Assembly: GCF_900182955.1 (NCBI RefSeq)
Contig: NZ_FXUL01000020.1
Coordinates: 62,001-126,000 of the forward strand
From: Noviherbaspirillum suwonense
Lineage (GTDB): Bacteria; Pseudomonadota; Gammaproteobacteria; Burkholderiales; Burkholderiaceae_D
Direction: 5' to 3'
DNA: 64,000 nt
Shown: positions 4,538 through 50,042 of the stretch, piece after piece
Layout of the letters: every line of letters starts with the position of its first letter
How positions within the stretch are numbered: the stretch's first letter is position 1
Program-made: the position numbers and the translations under genes
Notes under the pieces: generated by a model
Seen by the model: only the letters and a program-made list of their open reading frames with translations
The model's database searches: none
Told to the model about the DNA's origin: nothing

Positions 4538-5527
<990 letters not shown>

Positions 5528-9342: not shown

Positions 9343-10053
9343 ATGCCACGCACAGTCAAATTCAAGATTTACCGCTACGATCCGGACAAGGACAAGAAGC
9401 CTTACATGCAGGACCTGACGGTCGAGCTGAAGGACACCGACAAGATGCTGCTGGACGCGCTGCAGCGCATCAAGGCCGACGTCGACGACACGCTGTCGCT
9501 GCGCCGTTCGTGCCGCGAAGGCGTCTGCGGTTCCGACGCGATGAACATCAACGGCAAGAACGGGCTGGCCTGCACGACCAACCTCAACGAGCTGTCGCAG
9601 CCCATCGTGCTGCGTCCGCTGCCGGGCCTGCCGGTCATTCGCGACCTGATCGTCGACATGACCAACTTCTTCAAGCAGTATCACTCGATCAAGCCATTCC
9701 TGATCAACAATACGATACCGCCGGAGAAGGAGCGCCTGCAGTATCCGGCCGAGCGAGAAGAGCTCGATGGCCTGTACGAGTGCATCCTGTGCGCCTGCTG
9801 CTCGACCTCGTGCCCGTCGTTCTGGTGGAACCCGGACAAGTTCGTCGGCCCGGCCGGCCTGCTGCAAGCCTACCGCTTCATCGCGGACAGCCGCGACGAA
9901 GCGACCGGCGAGCGCCTGGACAACCTCGAAGATCCGTACCGCCTGTTCCGCTGCCATTCGATCATGAACTGCGTCGACGTCTGCCCGAAGGGCCTGAGCC
10001 CCAACGCAGCCATCGGCAAGATCAAGGAACTGCTGGTCCGCCGCGCGGTGTAA
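9343..10053 (+). CDS. sdhB: Succinate dehydrogenase iron-sulfur subunit
   Basis: 236 aa electron-transfer subunit of complex II. All three cluster motifs are intact: [11 protein letters not shown] with a downstream LAC for the [2Fe-2S] centre, [13 protein letters not shown] for [4Fe-4S], and [15 protein letters not shown] for [3Fe-4S]. It passes electrons from SdhA to ubiquinone at SdhCD. It starts 14 bases after sdhA with a weak GAGAG site and is followed by sdhE after 85 bases. Confidence 0.97.
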
Positions 10054-10138
10054 CGGGCAGGCCGGGCCTTGACGCCCGGCCTGCCAGCCCGATGCCAGGC
10101 GCATGCCGCGCGCATCGGGCCGTTTGATAGAAGAGCCC

Positions 10139-10408
10139 ATGTCTGCCAACCATCAAAGCGATCCCCACAACCGTGCCCGGCTGCGCTGGCGCAGCCGGCG
10201 CGGGCTGCTGGAAAACGACATCCTGCTTACCCGCTTCCTCGACGAGTTCGAAGAGGCGATGACGGATGAAGAGGTGGATGCCTATACCCGCCTGATGGAC
10301 CTGACCGACAACGACCTGATGGATCTGCTGCTGGCCCGCAAGGAGCCGGCCGGCGAGGTCGACCTGCCGCATGTGCATGCATTGCTGAAGCGCCTGCGGC
10401 AGGCTTGA
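10139..10408 (+). CDS. sdhE: FAD assembly factor SdhE
   Basis: 89 aa member of the SdhE/YgfY family. The hallmark RGLLEND (RGxxE) is present, followed by the helical segment DEEVDAYTRLMDLTDNDLMDLLL. SdhE helps to attach FAD covalently to SdhA, which fits its place between sdhB and gltA. The start at 10139 (MSANHQSD) follows AGAAG; a start 12 codons upstream lacks support. Confidence 0.92.
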   Translation: MSANHQSDPHNRARLRWRSRRGLLENDILLTRFLDEFEEAMTDEEVDAYTRLMDLTDNDLMDLLLARKEPAGEVDLPHVHALLKRLRQA

Positions 10409-10483
10409 TCCGACGCCATCGGCTGGTGCGGTTTTTGTACTAGCATCCCCCTATCGATAAACTGCTCAACAGAAGGAAGAGCC

Positions 10484-11788
10484 ATGACCCAATCTGACAA
10501 CAAAGCCACGCTGTCGTTTTCCGACGGTTCACCCTCGCTGGATTTCCCGATCTACAAGGGCACCATCGGTCCGGACGTCATCGACATTCGCAAGCTCTAT
10601 GGCTCCACGGGCAGCTTTACCTACGACCCGGGCTTCATGTCGACCGCTGCCTGCAACTCGTCGATCACCTACATCGACGGCGACAAGGGCGAACTGCTGT
10701 ATCGCGGCTTCCCGATCGAGCAGCTGGCCGTCAATTGCGATTTCCTCGAGACCTGCTACCTGCTCCTGAACGGCGAACTGCCGAACGCGAAGCAGAAGAA
10801 TGTCTTCGTCGACACCGTGACCAAGCACACGATGGTCCACGAGCAGATGCAATTCTTCTTCCGCGGCTTCCGTCGCGACGCGCACCCGATGTCGGTGCTG
10901 GTCGGCACCGTCGGCGCGCTGGCGTCCTTCTACCATGACTCGCTGGACATCAACGACCCGCATCACCGCGAAGTGTCGGCGATCCGCCTGATCGCCAAGA
11001 TGCCGACGCTGGTCGCGATGGCCTACAAGTATTCGGTCGGGCAGCCTTTCGTCTACCCGCGCAACGACCTGTCGTACAGCGCGAACTTCATGCACATGAT
11101 GTTCTCGACGCCCTGCGAAGAGTACAAGGTCAACGACGTGCTGGTGCGCGCGCTGGACCGCATCCTGATCCTGCATGCGGATCACGAGCAGAATGCGTCG
11201 ACCTCGACCGTCCGCCTGTCCGGTTCGTCCGGCGCCAATCCGTTCGCCTGTATCGCAGCCGGCATCGCCTGCCTGTGGGGCCCGGCGCACGGCGGCGCCA
11301 ACGAGGCGGCGCTCAACATGCTCAAGGAAATCGGTTCGGTCGACAAGATCGGCGAGTTCGTCAAGCAGGTCAAGGACAAGAACTCCGGCGTCAAGCTGAT
11401 GGGCTTCGGTCACCGCGTCTACAAGAACTACGACCCGCGCGCCAAGCTGATGCGCGAAACCTGCCACGAAGTGCTGGCCGAACTGGGCCTGGAAAACGAC
11501 CCGCTGTTCAAGCTGGCGATGGCGCTGGAAAAAGTGGCGCTGGAAGACGAATACTTCGTGTCGCGCAAGCTGTACCCGAACGTCGACTTCTACTCGGGCA
11601 TCGTGCAGTCGGCGCTGGGCATCCCGGTCTCGCTGTTCACCGGCATCTTCGCAATGGCCCGCACCGTGGGCTGGATCGCTCAGTGGAACGAGATGATCTC
11701 CGACCCGGAACAGAAGATCGGCCGTCCGCGCCAGCTGTATGTCGGCGCAACCCGCCGCGACGTGCCGGCAATGGACAAGCGCGCATAA
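10484..11788 (+). CDS. gltA: Citrate synthase (type II)
   Basis: 434 aa hexameric-type citrate synthase (E. coli GltA is 427 aa), condensing oxaloacetate and acetyl-CoA. The catalytic His lies in [14 protein letters not shown], the second His in [15 protein letters not shown], and the catalytic Asp near the [10 protein letters not shown] segment. The start at 10484 is preceded by AAGGAAGAG. It is followed by a strong intrinsic terminator that closes the sdh–gltA unit. Confidence 0.97.
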
Positions 11789-11805
11789 GCGACTTCACGT
11801 TATGC

Positions 11806-11841
11806 AAAAACCCCGGCGCCGCAAGGCCCCGGGGTTTTTTT
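11806..11841 (+). terminator. Intrinsic terminator of the sdh–gltA operon
   Basis: AAAAACCCCGG (11806–11816) pairs with CCGGGGTTTTT (11829–11839), and the T-run continues to 11841. It lies 17 bases after the gltA stop. The A-tract on the left arm could also allow function on the minus strand. Confidence 0.9.
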
Positions 11842-11857
11842 ACGTCACTCAATCGCG

Positions 11858-11958
11858 TAGGGTGCAATAAGCGCCAGCGCATTACACCATCCCGCCGGTG
11901 AGCCGGGCGTTATCCGTTTGCGACCCGCGGTGTGACGCGCTTCGCGTGTTACACCCTA
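11858..11958. repeat. 101-bp palindromic repeat element (MITE/REP-type) between gltA and sucA
   Basis: The element is bounded by TAGGGTG (11858–11864) and CACCCTA (11952–11958), which are inverted copies. The left part (GGTGCAATAAGCGCCAGCG followed by CATTACACC) and the right part (GGTGTGACGCGC, TTC, GCGTGTTACACC) each fold into an imperfect hairpin. The TAGGGTGCAATAAGCG…CGCATTACACC pattern resembles a dispersed non-coding repeat seen between genes in many proteobacteria. It has no coding capacity. With the terminator it fills the 384-bp gltA–sucA gap; a TGCTATCCT extended -10 near 12021–12030 may serve sucA. Confidence 0.6.
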
Positions 11959-12172
11959 TGAATCCGGTGTGGTGCCCCGTGTCGTATCGCGGCGGCAACC
12001 CTGTCGGCGCCATGGCTTCTATGCTATCCTCCTGCACTTGATTCCACTTCGTGGTACAGGTCAAACAGGTCCTTCCCCACAACTTGATGTGCAATCCGCT
12101 AACCGGTCAGGCCGTGTCGCGGAAGGTTAAGCAACCCGCTAATCTCGCGAAACGCGAAGAAAGGTGAGCAAG

Positions 12173-15028
12173 ATGATGCAGCAGTATTTGTCCAATTCCT
12201 ACCTGTTCGGAGGAAACGCACCGTACGTTGAAGAACTGTACGAAGCGTACCTGAACAATCCCGGCTCGGTGCCTGACAACTGGCGCGCGTATTTCGACGC
12301 GATGCAGCACGTGCCTGCCGCCGACGGCACCACCCGTCCCGACGTACCCCACGCTCCCGTCATCGCCTCTTTCGCCGAACGCGCGAAGCAGGGTCCGATC
12401 CGCACCGTCACCGCATCCACCGATGCGGAAATGGGCCGCAAGCGCGTCGCCGCGACGCAGCTGATCGCCGCCTACCGCTTCCTCGGCTCGCGCTGGGCCA
12501 ACCTCGACCCGCTGCAGCGCCAGGAGCGCCCCAGCATTCCCGAACTGGAGCCGAGCTTCTACGGCTTCACCGATGCCGACATGGACATCGTGTTCAACAT
12601 CAGCAATACCTACTTCGGCGCCGAGACCGCGTCGCTGCGCGACCTGCTCAATGCGCTGCGCGACACCTATTGTCGGTCCATCGGTTCCGAGTTCATGTAC
12701 ATCACCGACCCCGGTGAAAAGCGCTGGCTGCAGGAGCGCCTGGAATCGGTCCGCGCGACCCCGACCTTCACCGCGGAGAAGAAGCGCCACATTCTCGAGC
12801 GCCTGACCGCGGCCGAAGGCCTGGAGCGCTACCTGCACACCCGCTACGTCGGCCAGAAGCGCTTCTCGCTGGAAGGCGGCGAGAGCTTCATCGCATCGCT
12901 CGACGAGACCATCCAGCGCGCTGGTGAAAAGGGCGTGCAGGAAATCGTGATCGGCATGGCCCACCGCGGCCGCCTGAACGTGCTGGTCAACATCCTCGGC
13001 AAGATGCCGCAGGAACTGTTCGCCGAGTTCGAAGGCAAGCATGCGGACGACCTGCCGGCCGGCGACGTCAAGTATCACCAGGGCTTCTCGTCCGACGTCA
13101 CCACGCCTGGCGGCCCGGTCCACCTGTCGCTCGCATTCAACCCGTCGCACCTCGAGATCGTCAACCCGGTGGTCGAAGGCTCGGTCAAGGCCCGTATGGA
13201 ACGCCGCGGCGACAAGGACGGCGCGCAGGTCCTGCCTATCCTGGTCCACGGCGACGCCGCATTCGCCGGCCAGGGCGTCGTGATGGAAACGCTGAACCTG
13301 GCGCAGACCCGCGGCTACGGCACCGGCGGCACCGTGCATATCGTCATCAACAACCAGATCGGCTTCACCACGTCCGACCCGCGCGACTCGCGTTCGACGC
13401 TGTACTGCTCGGACGTCGTCAAGATGATCGAGGCGCCGGTGCTGCACGTGAACGCGGACGACCCGGAAGCCGTCGTGTTCGCGACCCAGATCGCGATGGA
13501 CTACCGCGTCGAGTTCAAGAAGGACATCGTCGTCGACATCATCTGCTACCGCAAGCTGGGTCACAACGAGCAGGACACCCCGGCGCTGACGCAGCCGCTG
13601 ATGTACAAGAAGATCGCCAAGCACCCTGGCACCCGCAAGCTGTACGCGGACAAGCTGGCGACCCAGAACACCATCTCCGCCGACACCGGCGACGAGATGG
13701 TCAAGGCCTACCGCGATGCGATGGATGCCGGCCGTCACACGGTGGACCCGGTGATCTCCAACTTCAAGAGCAAGTACGCGGTCGACTGGATGCCGTTCCT
13801 GAACCGCAAGTGGACCGACGCCGCGGACACCGCGGTGCCGCTGGCCGAACTGAAGCGCCTGGCGACCCGCATCACCACGGTGCCGGAAAACTTCAAGCCG
13901 CACTCGCTGGTGGAAAAGGTGCTGGCAGACCGCGCAGCCATGGGCCGCGGCGAGCTCAACCTCGACTGGGGCATGGGCGAGCATCTCGCCTATGCGTCGC
14001 TGGTGTCGTCGGGCTACGCCATCCGCCTGACCGGCCAGGACGCCGGCCGCGGCACCTTCGTGCATCGCCATTCGGTGCTGCATGACCAGAACCGCGAGCG
14101 CTGGGATGCGGGTTCCTATATCCCGCTGCAGAATGTCTCCGACCAGCAGGCCCCGTTCACCGTGATCGACTCGGTGCTGTCGGAAGAAGCGGTGCTGGGC
14201 TTTGAATACGGCTACTCGACCGCCGAGCCGAACACGCTGACGATCTGGGAAGCGCAGTTCGGCGACTTCGCCAACGGCGCGCAGGTCGTGATCGACCAGT
14301 TCATCAGCTCCGGCGAAGTGAAATGGGGCCGTGCATCGGGCCTGGTCATGATGCTGCCGCACGGCTACGAAGGGCAGGGCCCGGAGCACTCGTCGGCACG
14401 CCTCGAGCGCTACTTGCAGCTGTGCGCGGACAACAACATGCAGGTGGTGCAGCCGACGACGGCCGCGCAGATCTTCCACCTGCTGCGCCGCCAGATGATC
14501 CGGCTGTTCAGGAAGCCCCTGGTCATCATGACGCCGAAGTCGCTGCTGCGTAACAAGGATGCGGGTTCGCCGCTGGCCGACCTGGCCAAGGGCTCGTTCC
14601 AGACCGTGATCGGCGAGGTCGACGAGAAGATCGACCCGCGCAAGGTCAAGCGCGTGATCGCCTGCTCGGGCAAGGTGTACTACGACCTGGTCAACGCCCG
14701 CAAGGAGCGCGGCCAGACCGACACCGCCATCATCCGCGTCGAACAGCTGTATCCGTTCCCGCACAAGGCGTTCGCCGCCGAACTGAAGAAGTTCCCGGCC
14801 TACACCGAGGTGGTATGGGCGCAGGACGAGCCGCAGAATCAGGGACCATGGTTCCAGATCCAGCACAACATCTTCGAGAACATCGACGATGGACGCAAGC
14901 TGGCTTATGCAGGCCGCCCGGCCAGCGCATCGCCTGCTGTCGGCTACTACGACAAGCACTATGCGCAGCAGAAAGCCCTGATCGACACGGCCTTCTCGAA
15001 GCTCAAGGGCTTCGTCCTCACCAAATAA
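12173..15028 (+). CDS. sucA: 2-oxoglutarate dehydrogenase E1 component
   Basis: 951 aa thiamine-diphosphate-dependent E1o subunit, decarboxylating 2-oxoglutarate and succinylating the lipoyl group of SucB. Visible features: the N-terminal LFGGNAPYVEELYEAYL docking helix typical of E1o, GMAHRGRLNVLVN, HGDAAFAGQGVVMET, the ThDP/Mg loop region GFTTSDPRDSRSTLYC, and a C-terminal PTTAAQIFHLLRRQ transketolase-like part. ATG 12173 is preferred because AAAGGTG lies 6–7 bases upstream; GTG 12164 would start inside that site. It leads sucA–sucB–lpdA. Confidence 0.96.
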   Translation: MMQQYLSNSYLFGGNAPYVEELYEAYLNNPGSVPDNWRAYFDAMQHVPAADGTTRPDVPHAPVIASFAERAKQGPIRTVTASTDAEMGRKRVAATQLIAAYRFLGSRWANLDPLQRQERPSIPELEPSFYGFTDADMDIVFNISNTYFGAETASLRDLLNALRDTYCRSIGSEFMYITDPGEKRWLQERLESVRATPTFTAEKKRHILERLTAAEGLERYLHTRYVGQKRFSLEGGESFIASLDETIQRAGEKGVQEIVIGMAHRGRLNVLVNILGKMPQELFAEFEGKHADDLPAGDVKYHQGFSSDVTTPGGPVHLSLAFNPSHLEIVNPVVEGSVKARMERRGDKDGAQVLPILVHGDAAFAGQGVVMETLNLAQTRGYGTGGTVHIVINNQIGFTTSDPRDSRSTLYCSDVVKMIEAPVLHVNADDPEAVVFATQIAMDYRVEFKKDIVVDIICYRKLGHNEQDTPALTQPLMYKKIAKHPGTRKLYADKLATQNTISADTGDEMVKAYRDAMDAGRHTVDPVISNFKSKYAVDWMPFLNRKWTDAADTAVPLAELKRLATRITTVPENFKPHSLVEKVLADRAAMGRGELNLDWGMGEHLAYASLVSSGYAIRLTGQDAGRGTFVHRHSVLHDQNRERWDAGSYIPLQNVSDQQAPFTVIDSVLSEEAVLGFEYGYSTAEPNTLTIWEAQFGDFANGAQVVIDQFISSGEVKWGRASGLVMMLPHGYEGQGPEHSSARLERYLQLCADNNMQVVQPTTAAQIFHLLRRQMIRLFRKPLVIMTPKSLLRNKDAGSPLADLAKGSFQTVIGEVDEKIDPRKVKRVIACSGKVYYDLVNARKERGQTDTAIIRVEQLYPFPHKAFAAELKKFPAYTEVVWAQDEPQNQGPWFQIQHNIFENIDDGRKLAYAGRPASASPAVGYYDKHYAQQKALIDTAFSKLKGFVLTK

Positions 15029-15094
15029 GAAAAACCTTTTCGCGCGCCGTCCCCGAGGGGGCGGCGCTGCGCCTATACAGAAACGGAGTAATAC

Positions 15095-16381
15095 ATGGCA
15101 ATTCTCGAAGTCAAGGTTCCCCAGCTGTCGGAGTCGGTCGCCGAAGCGACCCTGCTGCAATGGCACAAGAAGGTCGGCGAAGCCGTCACCCGCGACGAGA
15201 ACCTGATCGATATCGAGACCGACAAGGTCGTCCTCGAACTTCCCGCGCCCGATGCCGGCGTGATCACTGAAATCCTCAAGGCGGACGGCAGCATGGTCGT
15301 CGCCGGCGAGATCATCGCCAAGATCGATACCGAGGCAAGCGCCGGCGCCGTGGCCCCCGCAGCCGCTGCGCCAGCCGCCGCCGCCGCACCCGCTGCCGCG
15401 CCTGCCGCAGACCCGGTCAGCGCTGCCATCGCCGGCCTGGCCGCGAAGGCGTCCTCCGGCGTCGCAATGCCTGCCGCCGCGAAGATGCTCGCTGAAAACA
15501 ACATGGCCGCAGGCGATGTCGCCGGCAGCGGCCGCGACGGCCGTGTGACCAAGGGCGACGTGCTGGGCAAGCTGGAAGCCCGTCCGGCAGCGCCTGCCGC
15601 CGCGCCGGCCGCTCCGGCCGCCGCACCGGCGAAGGCGCCGCTGCCGCAGGTCGCGCCGCCGACCGTCGCCAACCTCGGCGACCGTCCGGAAGAGCGTGTG
15701 CCGATGAGCCGCCTGCGCGCGCGCATCGCCGAGCGCCTGGTGCAGTCGCAGTCGACCAACGCGATCCTGACCACGTTCAACGAAGTCAACATGCAGCCGG
15801 TGATGGACCTGCGGACCAAGTACAAGGACAAGTTCGAGAAGGAGCACGGCGTCAAGCTGGGCTTCATGTCCTTCTTCGTCAAGGCCGCCGTTGCCGCGCT
15901 GAAGAAGTACCCGATCATCAATGCGTCGGTCGATGGCAATGACATCGTCTACCACGGCTACTTCGACATCGGCATCGCTGTCGGTTCGCCGCGCGGCCTG
16001 GTCGTGCCCATCCTGCGCAATGCGGACCAGATGTCGATCGCCGAGATCGAAAAGAAGATCGGCGAATTCGGCACCAAGGCCAAGGACGGCAAGCTGACGC
16101 TGGACGACCTGTCCGGCGGAACCTTCTCGATCTCCAACGGCGGCACGTTCGGCTCGATGCTGTCGACCCCGATCATCAACCCGCCGCAGTCGGCCATCCT
16201 GGGCGTGCATGCGACCAAGGACCGCGCGGTGGTCGAGAACGGCCAGATCGTGATCCGTCCGATGAACTACCTGGCGATGTCCTACGACCACCGGATCATC
16301 GACGGCCGCGAAGCGGTGCTCGGCCTGGTGGCGATGAAGGAAGCGCTGGAAGACCCGGCCCGCCTGCTGCTCGACCTGTAA
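15095..16381 (+). CDS. sucB: Dihydrolipoyllysine succinyltransferase (E2 of 2-oxoglutarate dehydrogenase)
   Basis: 428 aa. One lipoyl domain (residues 1–76, with the lipoylated Lys in ETDKVVLEL at about residue 43), an Ala/Pro-rich flexible linker, a peripheral subunit-binding domain (about 105–155; [24 protein letters not shown]), a second Ala/Pro linker, and the catalytic acyltransferase domain from about 195, with the active-site motif [14 protein letters not shown]2 forms the core of the complex with SucA and Lpd. The start follows GGAG. A terminator-like hairpin separates it from lpdA. Confidence 0.97.
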
Positions 16382-16392
16382 ATAGCGCCGGC

Positions 16393-16425
16393 AAACGATG
16401 GCGGCCACGAGCCGCCATTGTTTTT
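16393..16425 (+). terminator. Terminator-like hairpin between sucB and lpdA
   Basis: AAACGATGGCGGC (16393–16405) pairs with GCCGCCATTGTTT (16411–16423) with one G·T pair and a 5-nt loop, followed by TTTTT. It sits inside an otherwise continuous operon 36 bases before the lpdA start, so partial termination is likely. Confidence 0.75.
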
Positions 16426-16460
16426 ACTGCGCGCATTGACCAAGCAATCCAAGGAATAAT

Positions 16461-17888
<1,428 letters not shown>

Positions 17889-44129: not shown

Positions 44130-46597
<2,468 letters not shown>

Positions 46598-46620
46598 GTC
46601 AGCAAGGAAGGAATAGCACT

Positions 46621-47157
46621 ATGCCGGTATCAACGGACAAGGACCTCTGGGTCTCCTGGGATGAATATCACCATGCGATCGAATCGCTGGCGCTGATGGT
46701 GCACGAGTCGGGCTGGCGCTTCGACCACGTGCTGTGCCTGGCGCGCGGCGGGATGCGTCCCGGCGACATTTTCTCGCGCATCTTCGACGTGCCCCTGGCC
46801 ATCCTGTCGACCAGTTCGTACCGGGAGGAAGAGGGCACCGTGCGTGGCAGCCTCGACATCGCCAAGTACATCACGATGACCCGCGGCTCGCTGTCGGGCC
46901 GCGTGCTGCTGGTCGACGACCTGGTCGATTCCGGCGTGACGCTGGAGCAGGTGCAGTCGCACCTGCGCACCAATTTCCCGGCGGTGACCGAGGTCCGGTC
47001 GGCCGTGATCTGGTGCAAGGCATGTTCTTCGGTGCGGCCGGATTTCTACCTGCAGTACCTGGAGTCGAATCCGTGGATTCACCAGCCGTTCGAGGAATAC
47101 GACGGCCTGCGTCCGCACCAGTTGGCGGCGTGGATGAAGAAGGGTGAAAGCAAGTAG
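46621..47157 (+). CDS. Purine-type phosphoribosyltransferase family protein
   Basis: 178 aa type I phosphoribosyltransferase. The PRPP-binding loop is VLLVDDLVDSGVTLEQV (about residues 97–113), and VLCLARGGMRPGDIFSR forms the pyrophosphate-side loop. It resembles xanthine/hypoxanthine salvage enzymes (COG2236 type); the base specificity cannot be fixed from sequence by eye. AAGGAAGGA precedes the start. Its position directly after purA supports a purine role. Two terminators follow. Confidence 0.88.
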   Translation: MPVSTDKDLWVSWDEYHHAIESLALMVHESGWRFDHVLCLARGGMRPGDIFSRIFDVPLAILSTSSYREEEGTVRGSLDIAKYITMTRGSLSGRVLLVDDLVDSGVTLEQVQSHLRTNFPAVTEVRSAVIWCKACSSVRPDFYLQYLESNPWIHQPFEEYDGLRPHQLAAWMKKGESK

Positions 47158-47178
47158 GGTTGCTTGGCTCGAAGGAGG

Positions 47179-47204
47179 ATGCCGGCGTTGCCGGCATTTT
47201 TTTT
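47179..47204 (+). terminator. Intrinsic terminator after the phosphoribosyltransferase gene
   Basis: ATGCCGGC (47179–47186), loop GTT, GCCGGCAT (47190–47197) and eight T (47197–47204). It closes the purA-end transcription unit. Confidence 0.92.
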
Positions 47205-47257
47205 GGCTGATCTGAAATGAATGACCCGCGGAGCCGGATCATTCAGGGTTTGGTCAG

Positions 47258-47293
47258 AGGTTTGATTGATTCATCAATCAAACCTTTGTTTTT
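47258..47293 (+). terminator. Second intrinsic terminator, abutting the repeat array
   Basis: AGGTTTGATTGA (47258–47269) pairs perfectly with TCAATCAAACCT (47274–47285), followed by TTGTTTTT. Its T-run merges into the decayed first repeat unit. A further imperfect stem (TGAATGA…TCATTCA, about 47218–47246) lies between the two terminators. Confidence 0.85.
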
Positions 47294-47441
47294 GACGGAG
47301 GGGGCTCGGTCACGTTCCGCGACCCCGCCTGTCCCTGCAGGGCCAGGCTTTCGAGTCCCTCCCGCAAAGCGCGCAGGCGCTTTGCTCGTGGGCGCCAAAA
47401 CGCAAAAGGCCGGTTGCGAAAGCAACCGGCCTTTCTTGTTT
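47287..47441 (-). repeat. Repeat unit 1 (class A, decayed)
   Basis: The tRNA-distal unit. Its tRNA-end copy is eroded to ACGGAGGG (47295–47302), its 22-bp palindrome has one change (GCCTGTCCC), and its hairpin loop is GAAA on the plus strand, the reverse of units 2–3. Confidence 0.85.
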
Positions 47442-47751
47442 TGGTGCCCACGGAGGGAGCTCGGTCACGTTCCGCGACCCCGCCTGGCCCTGCAGGGCCA
47501 GGCTTTCAATTCCCTCCCGCAAAGCGCGCAGGCGCTTTGCTCGTGGGCGCCAAAACGCAAAAGGCCGGTTGCTTTCGCAACCGGCCTTTCTTGTTTTGGT
47601 GCCCACGGAGGGAGCTCGGTCACGTTCCGCGACCCCGCCTGGCCCTGCAGGGCCAGGCTTTCAATTCCCTCCCGCAAAGCGCGCAGGCGCTTTGCTCGTG
47701 GGCGCCAAAACGCAAAAGGCCGGTTGCTTTCGCAACCGGCCTTTCTTGTTT
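47442..47751 (-). repeat. Repeat units 2–3 (class B, identical to each other)
   Basis: Two 155-bp units that appear identical. They are distinguished by TTCAATTCCC in place of TTCGAGTCCC, by CCAAAACGC before the hairpin and by hairpin loop TTTC (GAAA in the tRNA sense). Confidence 0.88.
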
Positions 47752-48213
47752 TGGTGCCCACGGAGGGAGCTCGGTCACGTTCCGCGACCCCGCCTGGCCC
47801 TGCAGGGCCAGGCTTTCGAGTCCCTCCCGCAAAGCGCGCAGGCGCTTTGCTCGTGGGCGCCAAATGCAAAAGGCCGGTTGCTTGCGCAACCGGCCTTTCT
47901 TGTTTTGGTGCCCACGGAGGGAGCTCGGTCACGTTCCGCGACCCCGCCTGGCCCTGCAGGGCCAGGCTTTCGAGTCCCTCCCGCAAAGCGCGCAGGCGCT
48001 TTGCTCGTGGGCGCCAAATGCAAAAGGCCGGTTGCTTGCGCAACCGGCCTTTCTTGTTTTGGTGCCCACGGAGGGAGCTCGGTCACGTTCCGCGACCCCG
48101 CCTGGCCCTGCAGGGCCAGGCTTTCGAGTCCCTCCCGCAAAGCGCGCAGGCGCTTTGCTCGTGGGCGCCAAATGCAAAAGGCCGGTTGCTTGCGCAACCG
48201 GCCTTTCTTGTTT
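47752..48213 (-). repeat. Repeat units 4–6 (class C, identical to each other)
   Basis: Three 154-bp units that appear identical and lie next to the tRNA. They have TTCGAGTCCC, CCAAATGC before the hairpin and hairpin loop TTGC (GCAA in the tRNA sense). Confidence 0.9.
48173..48206 (-). terminator. Bidirectional terminator-type hairpin directly after tRNA-Leu
   Basis: AAAGGCCGGTTGC (48177–48189) and GCAACCGGCCTTT (48194–48206) form a 13-bp perfect stem. In the tRNA direction the loop is GCAA and the tail is TTTTGCATTT; in the plus direction the tail is TTTCTTGTTTT. It begins 8 bases past the encoded CCA and recurs in all six repeat units. Confidence 0.75.
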
Positions 48214-48298
48214 TGGTGCCCACGGAGGGACTCGAACCCCCACACCTTGCGGCACATGGACCTGAACCATGCGCGTCTACCAATTCCGCCACGTGGGC
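48214..48298 (-). tRNA. tRNA-Leu (anticodon CAG)
   Basis: 85 nt with encoded CCA. Acceptor stem GCCCACG/CGTGGGC; D-arm with GGCGGAATTGGTAGACGC, typical of leucine tRNAs; anticodon stem CATGG/CCATG with loop TTCAGGT giving anticodon CAG; a long variable arm (class II, TGCCGCAAGGTGTGG region); T-loop TTCGAGT. It reads CUG, the main leucine codon in this genome. The 5' end is 48298; a strong sigma-70 promoter lies upstream and the repeat array lies directly downstream. Confidence 0.97.
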
Positions 48299-48342
48299 TT
48301 CGCTGATCGCCTTTACTGCTGCGGCGTTCGCGGAGAGCCAGA

Positions 48343-48371
48343 ACTATATAGAACATCGGCAGTGTGGTCAA
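48343..48371 (-). promoter_or_regulatory. Sigma-70 promoter of tRNA-Leu
   Basis: On the minus strand TTGACC (48366–48371), a 17-base spacer, and TATAGT (48343–48348). Transcription would start near 48336, giving a leader of roughly 38 nt for RNase P to remove. Confidence 0.75.
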
Positions 48372-48541
48372 TGCCTGGCCGACATGAATTGTCATCGCGT
48401 GCTGATGCATGGCAGGAAGCCGATCCTGGATCGAAAACCCATATTTACATTGGGCGCATGGAAACATACACTCGAAGTTACAAGAGGGACAAGCGCGGCA
48501 AGACGCCGGCCGCGTCTTCAGCCATGTAACCGGGAGCAACG

Positions 48542-48964
48542 ATGGTCAAGGTACTTGTCGCAATCCGTCCTGAGGATGCGGGCGTGATGCGCCGCGTGTT
48601 CGGCGACGAGTTTGATGTGATCAGTTGCGCGACGCTGGCGGAGGCGCAGGCGGTGCTGGACGGGCTGGGCGGCGAACCTCTTGCGATGATTGCCTGCGGC
48701 GTGCATTTCGATGACGGCCGCATGTTCGACCTGCTGAAGCTGGTCAAGGCCGATCCGCAATTCTCCGATATCCCGTTCTGGGGCATCCTGCGCGATGAAG
48801 GCATGCTGTCCAGCGCGATCACGCGCGGCATACGGACGGCAATGAAGAGCATGGGCGCGAGCGGCCTGTTCAACCTGTCGCAGCTCGATCCGGGAAGCGA
48901 CGAGGAGCAGGCCTACCTGAACCTGCGCAGCGCGATCCGGCAGTCGCTGGCGAACGGCGGCTGA
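48542..48964 (+). CDS. Receiver-like (pseudo-response-regulator) protein
   Basis: 140 aa. The N terminus MVKVLVAIRPEDAGVMRRVF and the alternation of strands and helices suggest a CheY-like fold. The strand-3 position that should carry the phosphorylated Asp reads MIACGVHFDDGRMFDLLKLV, with Cys/Gly instead, and the usual acidic pair after strand 1 (IRPED) is weak. It has no output domain. A role in signalling without phosphorylation is possible but unproved. A GGGAG site precedes the start. A 243-bp gap separates it from tRNA-Leu. Confidence 0.7.
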   Translation: MVKVLVAIRPEDAGVMRRVFGDEFDVISCATLAEAQAVLDGLGGEPLAMIACGVHFDDGRMFDLLKLVKADPQFSDIPFWGILRDEGMLSSAITRGIRTAMKSMGASGLFNLSQLDPGSDEEQAYLNLRSAIRQSLANGG

Positions 48965-48989
48965 CGCCCCCGCCGGCGATGCGGGTCCG

Positions 48990-50042
48990 CTAGCCGTGCG
49001 ACACGCCCTTGTGGGTGCCGTACATGTCATGCGCGGTGGTGTTAGCCGAGCCCGTCAATAACGGCTGTCCGGGGGCGGACGCGGCGGCGGCCTGCCGTAT
49101 CGCCAGCACCACGTCGTCCGGCGCCTCGTGATGCAGCATGTGTCCCTTGCCCTCGACGACATGCAGCCTGCTCATCCGAAGCGCCTTGTGCAGCCGCATG
49201 GTCTGCGCCTTGGTGCTGACCAGCCTGTCGCTGGCGCCCGCCAGCAGCGTCACGGGTACCTTGAGCCGCTCGAACTGCGGCGCCAGTTCGCTGGCCGCCG
49301 ACTGCATCATCGCCGTCTCGCTGGCGCTGGCGTAGAGTGTGCCGGGGCGCAGCGACATCCATACCGGATAGCCGGACGCGAACGGCTCGGGCGTTGCCGG
49401 CGGGCCGAACACGCGGCGCTTGATCAGTGGCCACATCATGCGTCCGAGCACCGGGGAGACCGTATGGCGAAGGAAGGTGCCGACATAAGGGATGGCCGGC
49501 ATCGACAGCAGCGGTACGTCCAGCCGCAGCGACGGATAGTAATAGCCGGACATCAGCACCAGGCCGCGTATCGCGTTCGGGTGCATCACGCCCATCCACA
49601 AGGCGATCAGCGTGCCCCAGGAGTGGCCGACGATGACCGGGTCTTCGACATGCAGCCGCAGCAGCGCGCGGCGCAGCAGCGCGGCCTGCGAGCGCGGGTC
49701 GAAGTTGCGGAAATCGGGGCGGTCGCTGTGGCCATAGCCGGGGCGGTCGAACACGATCACGCGGTTGGTTTCAGCCAGCTTGTCGACGATCCCGCTCAAC
49801 TCGAAATCCTGGATCATGCTGCCGTTGCCGTGCACCAGCACGACCGCCGGCCCCTGGCCGCGGTCGATATAGTGCAGGCGCACCCGGTCGATGTCGATGA
49901 ATTCGCCTTCCGGCGGATTGTCGCGCTCGGCCTGGCGCGTGCGGACTTTCGCGTACAGCGCGGACGCCGCCAGGGTTGCAGCCGTGGCCAGCGCAACGCC
50001 GCCGGCACGGATCAGGATGTCTTTGTTTTTTAAATTGGGCAT
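48990..50042 (-). CDS. Membrane-anchored alpha/beta hydrolase
   Basis: 350 aa. An N-terminal hydrophobic helix (about residues 10–31) is followed by the alpha/beta hydrolase fold: oxyanion-region VLVHGNGSMIQDF, FDRPGYGHSDRP, nucleophile elbow VGHSWGTLIAL (Ser near residue 142), Asp in AGASDRLV and His in GKGHMLHHE. The substrate is unknown; close families include haloalkane dehalogenase-like and lipase-like esterases. The ribosome site is weak. It lies upstream-facing to treZ with no clear functional link. Confidence 0.85.
   Translation of the reverse strand: MPNLKNKDILIRAGGVALATAATLAASALYAKVRTRQAERDNPPEGEFIDIDRVRLHYIDRGQGPAVVLVHGNGSMIQDFELSGIVDKLAETNRVIVFDRPGYGHSDRPDFRNFDPRSQAALLRRALLRLHVEDPVIVGHSWGTLIALWMGVMHPNAIRGLVLMSGYYYPSLRLDVPLLSMPAIPYVGTFLRHTVSPVLGRMMWPLIKRRVFGPPATPEPFASGYPVWMSLRPGTLYASASETAMMQSAASELAPQFERLKVPVTLLAGASDRLVSTKAQTMRLHKALRMSRLHVVEGKGHMLHHEAPDDVVLAIRQAAAASAPGQPLLTGSANTTAHDMYGTHKGVSHG

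Follow-up and report, generated by a model that had tools for sequence, protein, structure and literature searches.

Within the window, the whole 64,000-nt stretch of Noviherbaspirillum suwonense DNA analysed here, ARAGORN found a single tRNA gene, tRNA-Leu(CAG). A tandem array lay between this gene and a convergent gene whose sequence suggested a putative phosphoribosyltransferase-like product (Table 1). The array unit (~150 bp) was gene-free and too small for an integrase gene, and none of the units was detected by ARAGORN as a tRNA gene. Every unit comprised a terminator together with one split inverted and one direct copy of the tRNA end, the most distal unit being incomplete. The directly repeated segment started at what we take to be C56 in standard tRNA numbering. 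In the tRNA sense, the features followed each other in the order of tRNA, terminator (with the minus-strand tail TTTTGCATTT), TGGCGCCCACG, A, H1, G, GGAGGGACTCGAA, H2, H3 and direct copy. Measured against the reference unit at 47914–48067, the three tRNA-proximal units were 100% identical, the next two 97% and the most distal one 95%; that is, the tandem units were most alike next to the tRNA and their identity dropped with distance from it. An Rfam search of positions 46000–50000 returned, beyond the tRNA, sub-threshold matches only (ar35, P26, MIR1862, STnc390, and mascRNA).

Table 1. Features of the tRNA-Leu(CAG) gene and the tandem array behind it (positions in the window).
Feature	Position	Strand	Source or remark
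tRNA-Leu(CAG)	48214–48298	-	ARAGORN, Rfam tRNA
tRNA 3' end, C56 to CCA; directly repeated segment of the units	48214–48234	-	
T1, terminator hairpin separating the tRNA from the first element	48177–48206		+ strand only in scan
Complement of acceptor strand and CCA, TGGCGCCCACG	48160–48170	-	10/11; + strand, CGTGGGCGCCA
H1, 9-bp palindrome with CTGC loop at the acceptor/T-stem junction	48137–48158	-	core of the 24-bp insert
Complement of T-stem and T-loop, GGAGGGACTCGAA	48123–48135	-	+ strand, TTCGAGTCCCTCC
H2, 22-bp palindrome, GCCTGGCCCTGCAGGGCCAGGC	48100–48121	-	
H3, GGTCGCGGAACGTGACC	48081–48097	-	
tRNA 3' end, direct copy, CGAG-C-TCCCTCCGTGGGCACCA	48060–48081	-	one extra C
Tandem array, 6.1 units of 154/155 bp each	47295–48234	-	
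Unit 1, element core	48099–48170	-	model match
Unit 2, element core	47945–48016	-	model match
Unit 3, element core	47791–47862	-	model match
Unit 4, element core	47636–47707	-	model match
Unit 5, element core	47481–47552	-	model match
Unit 6, element core	47326–47397	-	model match

The initial annotation had described, on the plus strand, an inverted tRNA 3' end split into TTCGAGTCCCTCC and CGTGGGCGCCA by a 24-bp insert (48136–48159), and its letters and coordinates proved exact. Compared with tRNA-Leu(CAG), the inverted copy matched at 12/12 positions in the T-arm and 10/11 in the acceptor/CCA part. This sum of 22 (over 11 + 13 letters) was not reached in any of 20,000 random 154-nt draws from the window, those at the array being skipped; their maximum was 20. 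The insert is itself the hairpin H1, and what had been taken as a single feature recurred in all six array units. The feature is real and recurrent.

A covariance model built from 13 elements matched 82 of 145 genomes of the family (E ≤ 0.001), and the matches were found behind tRNA-Leu, -Ser, -Asp, and -Glu. At E ≤ 0.01, there were 135 matches in 97 sources, which comprised the window and 96 fetched loci, part of them overlapping. With each array unit counted separately, the nearest tRNA in front was Leu-CAG (39), Asp (20), Ser-GGA (18), Glu (15), Ser-TGA (10), Ser-CGA (10), Ser-GCT (6), or Leu-GAG (1), and 16 matches had none. The latter were located in 11 regions, which were fetched at length: tRNA-Ser was found farther upstream in seven (L254, L255, L256, L257, L258, L261, and L262), a tRNA-Ser 3'-end fragment and a hairpin stood immediately before the element in three (L259, L260, and L264), and a group II intron lay in front in L263. 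One match of this kind was an opposite-strand match on a palindrome of L114. Group II intron sequence preceded the element in L263 (16260–16529, Rfam), in L257 (~15100) and in L056 (~2000, the same place as in L263); in the last two, a domain-V-like end was recognized by eye. Tandem units existed in 20 of 96 locus-strands (part of the loci overlapping), and direct copies of the tRNA end were found behind Leu, Asp, Glu, and several Ser tRNAs. This architecture, which recurred at several tRNA isotypes, is at odds with the earlier suggestion that the inverted copy is simply a relic of an inverted duplication.

In the genome of N. suwonense itself, the confident matches were the array, a single-copy element behind a second tRNA-Leu(CAG) and one element behind tRNA-Asp. 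All of these matches stood behind tRNAs. A dispersed REP-type repeat was considered and found unsupported. At the level of the order, the model matched 21 of 399 genomes, eight from the same family and 13 from other families (the tRNA context was inspected in part of the 13), and at the level of the class it matched one of 369, which was the genome of N. suwonense. Both searches scored 12–13 candidates per genome, which limited their sensitivity, and absence in them is weak evidence. A pattern search across the phylum matched three of 299 genomes. Two of these matches were probably due to chance, because the reversed pattern also matched two genomes once each; the genome of N. suwonense was missed because of its extra C. 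No exact match to a 22-nt pattern around H3 was found in viral contigs, and unit 1 had no blast match among phages and plasmids. Among the open-access papers listed in literature searches, we recognized none that describes tRNA-matched mirror copies.

The arms of the element matched the tRNA in front of them. From the 135 matches, 119 with a tRNA were reduced to 83 that were first in the locus, within 100 nt and had at least 7/9 H1 pairs, and 81 of these were distinct. Against their own tRNA, these 81 elements matched on average at 8.72/11 positions in the acceptor part and 11.02/12 in the T-arm. The maxima over 2000 permutations were 6.89 and 9.86, respectively, and none of them reached the observed match. 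The match was specific even within an isotype, with 8.61 + 11.00 for the own tRNA vs. 7.45 + 9.94 for the variant tRNAs.

The direct copy was lost (12/19 or less) in 40 of 90 elements and kept in 50. The arms of the elements without it matched the tRNA at 9.5/11 + 11.5/12, compared with 7.9 + 10.5 in the elements that kept it, and the same ranking was observed when Asp, Glu, Leu, and Ser were considered separately. These means retained L135 and L149, two rows without the copy that scored low as the hairpin finder had misplaced H1. The arms matched at least as well after loss of the direct copy, and therefore their partner is the tRNA gene or the tRNA rather than the direct copy. The loss of the copy in these 40 elements also weakened the proposal of an obligatory tRNA-like, CCA-bearing RNA encoded by the element.

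Whether the hairpins are kept as DNA or as RNA was approached through their changes. Among 13 sequences, H1 and H2 showed 45 double-sided changed cells and no single-sided one. A helix that works as RNA in the tRNA sense should tolerate G.U and not A.C, and mismatches were therefore counted by strand in H1, H2 and terminator stems, all chosen by one rule, a minimum of Watson–Crick pairs. H1 contained 6 GT, 7 AC and 9 other mismatches (60 distinct hairpins, 540 pairs), and H2 contained 9, 14, and 25 (79 distinct), so the combined GT:AC count of 15:21 displayed no bias to G.U. In contrast, the terminator stems of the same loci had 15 GT, 0 AC and 4 other mismatches (47 distinct). The terminators differed from H1 and H2 together with a Fisher p of 8e-5 and from H1 alone with p = 0.0014, related sequences being treated as independent. 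H1 and H2 are DNA-type palindromes. The place of H1 was fixed, and its loop was CTGC in 48 of the 60 distinct hairpins. In H3, one G.T pair was kept in all 10 aligned Leu elements, which could mean recognition of RNA or of a single strand. This strand test of G.T vs. A.C mismatches provides a simple means to tell DNA-level from RNA-level palindromes.

These data bear on the possibility that the element gives rise to a processed, rtT-like small RNA, in which the inverted arm and the direct copy form a tRNA-like acceptor/T helix ending in CCA, the tRNA 3'-end enzymes cut it and a by-product RNA is released. The fold predicted for the RNA of one unit contains such a helix (108 nt, -74.0 kcal/mol), the G.T pair retained in H3 is consistent with it, and in Escherichia coli the annotated ncRNA rttR has the CCACCA of the direct copy as its 3' end, the plan being similar in the RtT relatives. 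However, 83 of 88 distinct spacers of at least 15 nt contained a terminator-like hairpin with a T run ahead of the element (three rows with shorter spacers, L128 twice and L136, were omitted because they have no room for a terminator), H1 and H2 lacked a wobble signature, and the arms were still matched where the direct copy had been lost. On balance, we consider this explanation fairly unlikely.

The element was patchy in its occurrence. At the convergent tRNA-Leu(CAG)/phosphoribosyltransferase site, examined in the best 30 of 127 matching genomes, it was present in three of 20 loci and absent in 17, and the 10 further loci had no such tRNA. In the 17 sites without the element, the flanks had diverged too far to display the exact junction. 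Locus L343 resembled a decayed remnant of the element.

The initial annotation had further raised the possibility that, in a read-through RNA, pairing with the inverted arm traps the tRNA acceptor and T-arm and thereby controls maturation of the tRNA. The pairing potential on which this was based held up: the minimum-energy fold predicted for the read-through RNA (200 nt, -130.3 kcal/mol) was the proposed one, in which the tRNA 3' end pairs with the element, and the arms track the tRNA itself across species. The T-arm mismatches (22 GT, 5 AC) also leaned in the direction expected of RNA. However, this excess fell to 7 vs. 3 when tRNA-Asp was excluded, and the acceptor part was opposite in direction (20 GT, 33 AC). 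The intervening terminator, the intact tRNAs at the 17 syntenic sites without the element and the missing wobble signature in H1 and H2, which the terminators of the same loci do possess, likewise left the maturation switch poorly supported. A switch on tRNA maturation is thus unlikely, indeed the trapping of the tRNA by read-through RNA seems to us very improbable. The element is of more interest as a class.

Larger insertions were also observed at tRNA 3' ends. Loci L256, L258, L261, and L262 contained islands of 6.5 to 15.9 kb at the 3' ends of tRNA-Ser, and a tRNA-end fragment was left in front of each displaced element. In L254 (G161:C93:1-20000), a 7-kb insert (9641–16628) was located between two elements behind tRNA-Ser(GCT). 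It encoded an AbiEii-type nucleotidyltransferase (PF08843, E = 6e-29) beside a 203-aa ORF whose match to DUF6088 fell short of the curated cut-off, and two adjoining ORFs had no Pfam match. That the element might form the end of cassettes carrying genes was considered and rejected for L256, L258, L261, L262, L259, L260, and L264, because the tRNA-end fragment and terminator directly precede the element in those seven loci.

The 22-nt pattern around H3 matched 43 stretches in public genomes. The organisms with this pattern included Pandoraea, Herbaspirillum, Noviherbaspirillum, Massilia, Paucimonas, Pelomonas, and Roseateles; nine stretches were labelled Candidatus Saccharibacteria, and three of like form appeared under other labels. 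In seven of these nine, the pattern was located 145–156 nt behind a tRNA (His, Met, Pro, Val, Trp, Met, and Lys), and no tRNA was found in front of the other two. By eye, the direct copy in L186, L207, L218, and L220 was identical to the last 20 nt of the tRNA. The remaining core was unlike that of the Burkholderiales. Three of 239 sampled Saccharibacteria genomes were matched, including the query genome. Over the element in seven Saccharibacteria loci, Rfam gave no known family, only weak matches of miRNA type.

Some of these contigs carried further features. Sub-threshold Rfam matches were observed to a type III hammerhead ribozyme in L206 (5052–5106) and to two c-di-GMP-II riboswitches in L186 (6982–7557), both being contigs of Saccharibacteria MAGs. 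In L221 (~4800–5000), a tRNA-Trp-like T-loop was broken by an insert of the Saccharibacteria form, after which another tRNA start followed. The contig of L184, which carries an element of this form, bears the label of a Rhodoglobus MAG and was possibly mis-binned.

Another explanation is that the element arose neutrally, as a by-product of snap-back synthesis in which the tRNA end was copied in reverse from the terminator hairpin; repeated template switching would then maintain perfect palindromes. The inverted copy does begin directly behind the terminator, and the double-sided changes, which lack wobble intermediates, agree with templated correction. Nevertheless, the fixed place of H1, its prevailing CTGC loop and a hairpin pattern common to two phyla are more than would be expected of such a process, and the terminator-proximal part was less conserved (79%) than the distal T-arm (92%). 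We regard this origin as distinctly unlikely.

The explanation that we favor, and which we hold to be about evenly balanced between right and wrong, is that the element is an RtT-like palindromic DNA element anchored to tRNAs, an accessory passenger that grows by tRNA-end recombination and not a maturation switch. Recombination through the repeated segment of the tRNA end would bring the element to tRNA 3' ends and raise its copy number there, and new units would arise adjoining the tRNA. The palindromes and the tRNA-matching arms would be maintained at the DNA level and not by RNA pairing; templated correction of the palindromes, a DNA-binding recombinase or the two together may be responsible. 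We infer that the element may be mobile, and likewise how its arms may come to fit each tRNA. Ordinary homologous recombination would suffice for tandem growth without a mobile element. Further points against this reading are the G.T pair kept in H3, the lean of the T-arm mismatches to G.T, the lack of matches among viral contigs, phages and plasmids, and the description of the E. coli rtT as an RNA product. As a tentative and rather doubtful extension, these could be gene-free minimal mobile elements at tRNA 3' ends, with a guide-like tail complement rewritten for each host tRNA, that link the Burkholderiales, the gammaproteobacterial RtT and the Saccharibacteria. The rule of a straight and a mirror copy of the tail covers six tRNA isotypes in Proteobacteria (Leu, Ser, Asp, and Glu; Gln and Tyr among RtT), and the hairpin of the Leu form occurs with tRNA-end copies behind further tRNAs in Saccharibacteria. 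With this rule, the origin and role of these trailers become testable.

Among known systems, REP/BIME sequences are likewise small palindromic units, and some members of BIME clusters are similar to rtT according to a passage in PMC2965389. The element differs from them in that its confident matches in the N. suwonense genome each stood behind a tRNA. As in genomic islands at tRNA 3' ends, whose inserted DNA is bordered by a direct repeat of the tRNA 3' end, the array units have such repeats at both ends, a feature of tRNA-integrating mobile elements that was lost in the 40 of 90 elements mentioned above. However, the element is only ~150 bp in size and has no genes, unlike such islands.

The closest likeness is to RtT. 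E. coli K-12 possesses three 178-bp rtT repeats (RF00391) behind tyrV, in each of which the tRNA-Tyr end is copied directly and the T-stem is copied in inverted orientation, GGGGAAGGATGAGAAG. Passages in two papers describe the E. coli rtT as a real RNA product and RtT as an RNA by-product of tRNA operons (PMC4986893; PMC2965389), and in a passage of another its copy number varies in Salmonella Paratyphi A (PMC2658671). In the class, RtT was matched in 22 of 185 genomes at E ≤ 1e-5, 11 of them above the curated cut-off (gathering cut-off of 45 bits). From 31 matches, 30 loci were fetched, L288 and L307 being one array. Among them, 27 were directly behind a tRNA, namely Ser (13), Gln (7), Tyr (6), or Glu (1). 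The T-arm complement of RtT averaged 9.96/12, compared with a mean of 9.00 and a maximum of 9.44 in 1000 permutations, and the direct copy averaged 17.2/19, compared with 13.7 and 15.1, respectively, and reached at least 17/19 in 21 of 27 loci. The RtT loci therefore resemble the tRNA in front of them, and the tRNA-matched plan is also that of RtT, more clearly in the direct than in the inverted copy.

Both RtT and the element in the window form tandem units behind a tRNA, each closing with a direct copy of the tRNA 3' end including CCA, and in both an inverted T-stem copy, able to pair with the direct copy, stands ahead of a hairpin core. The E. coli rtT motif GAYGAGAA was also found in 12 of 81 Burkholderiales elements. 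The element is distinguished from RtT by its inverted arm split by H1, a different core and the terminator in front. The RF00391 model, which gave three matches in the E. coli control, gave no match at E ≤ 1 in positions 46000–50000 of the window and none in the N. suwonense genome, and the element is therefore a new variant within the RtT-like elements.
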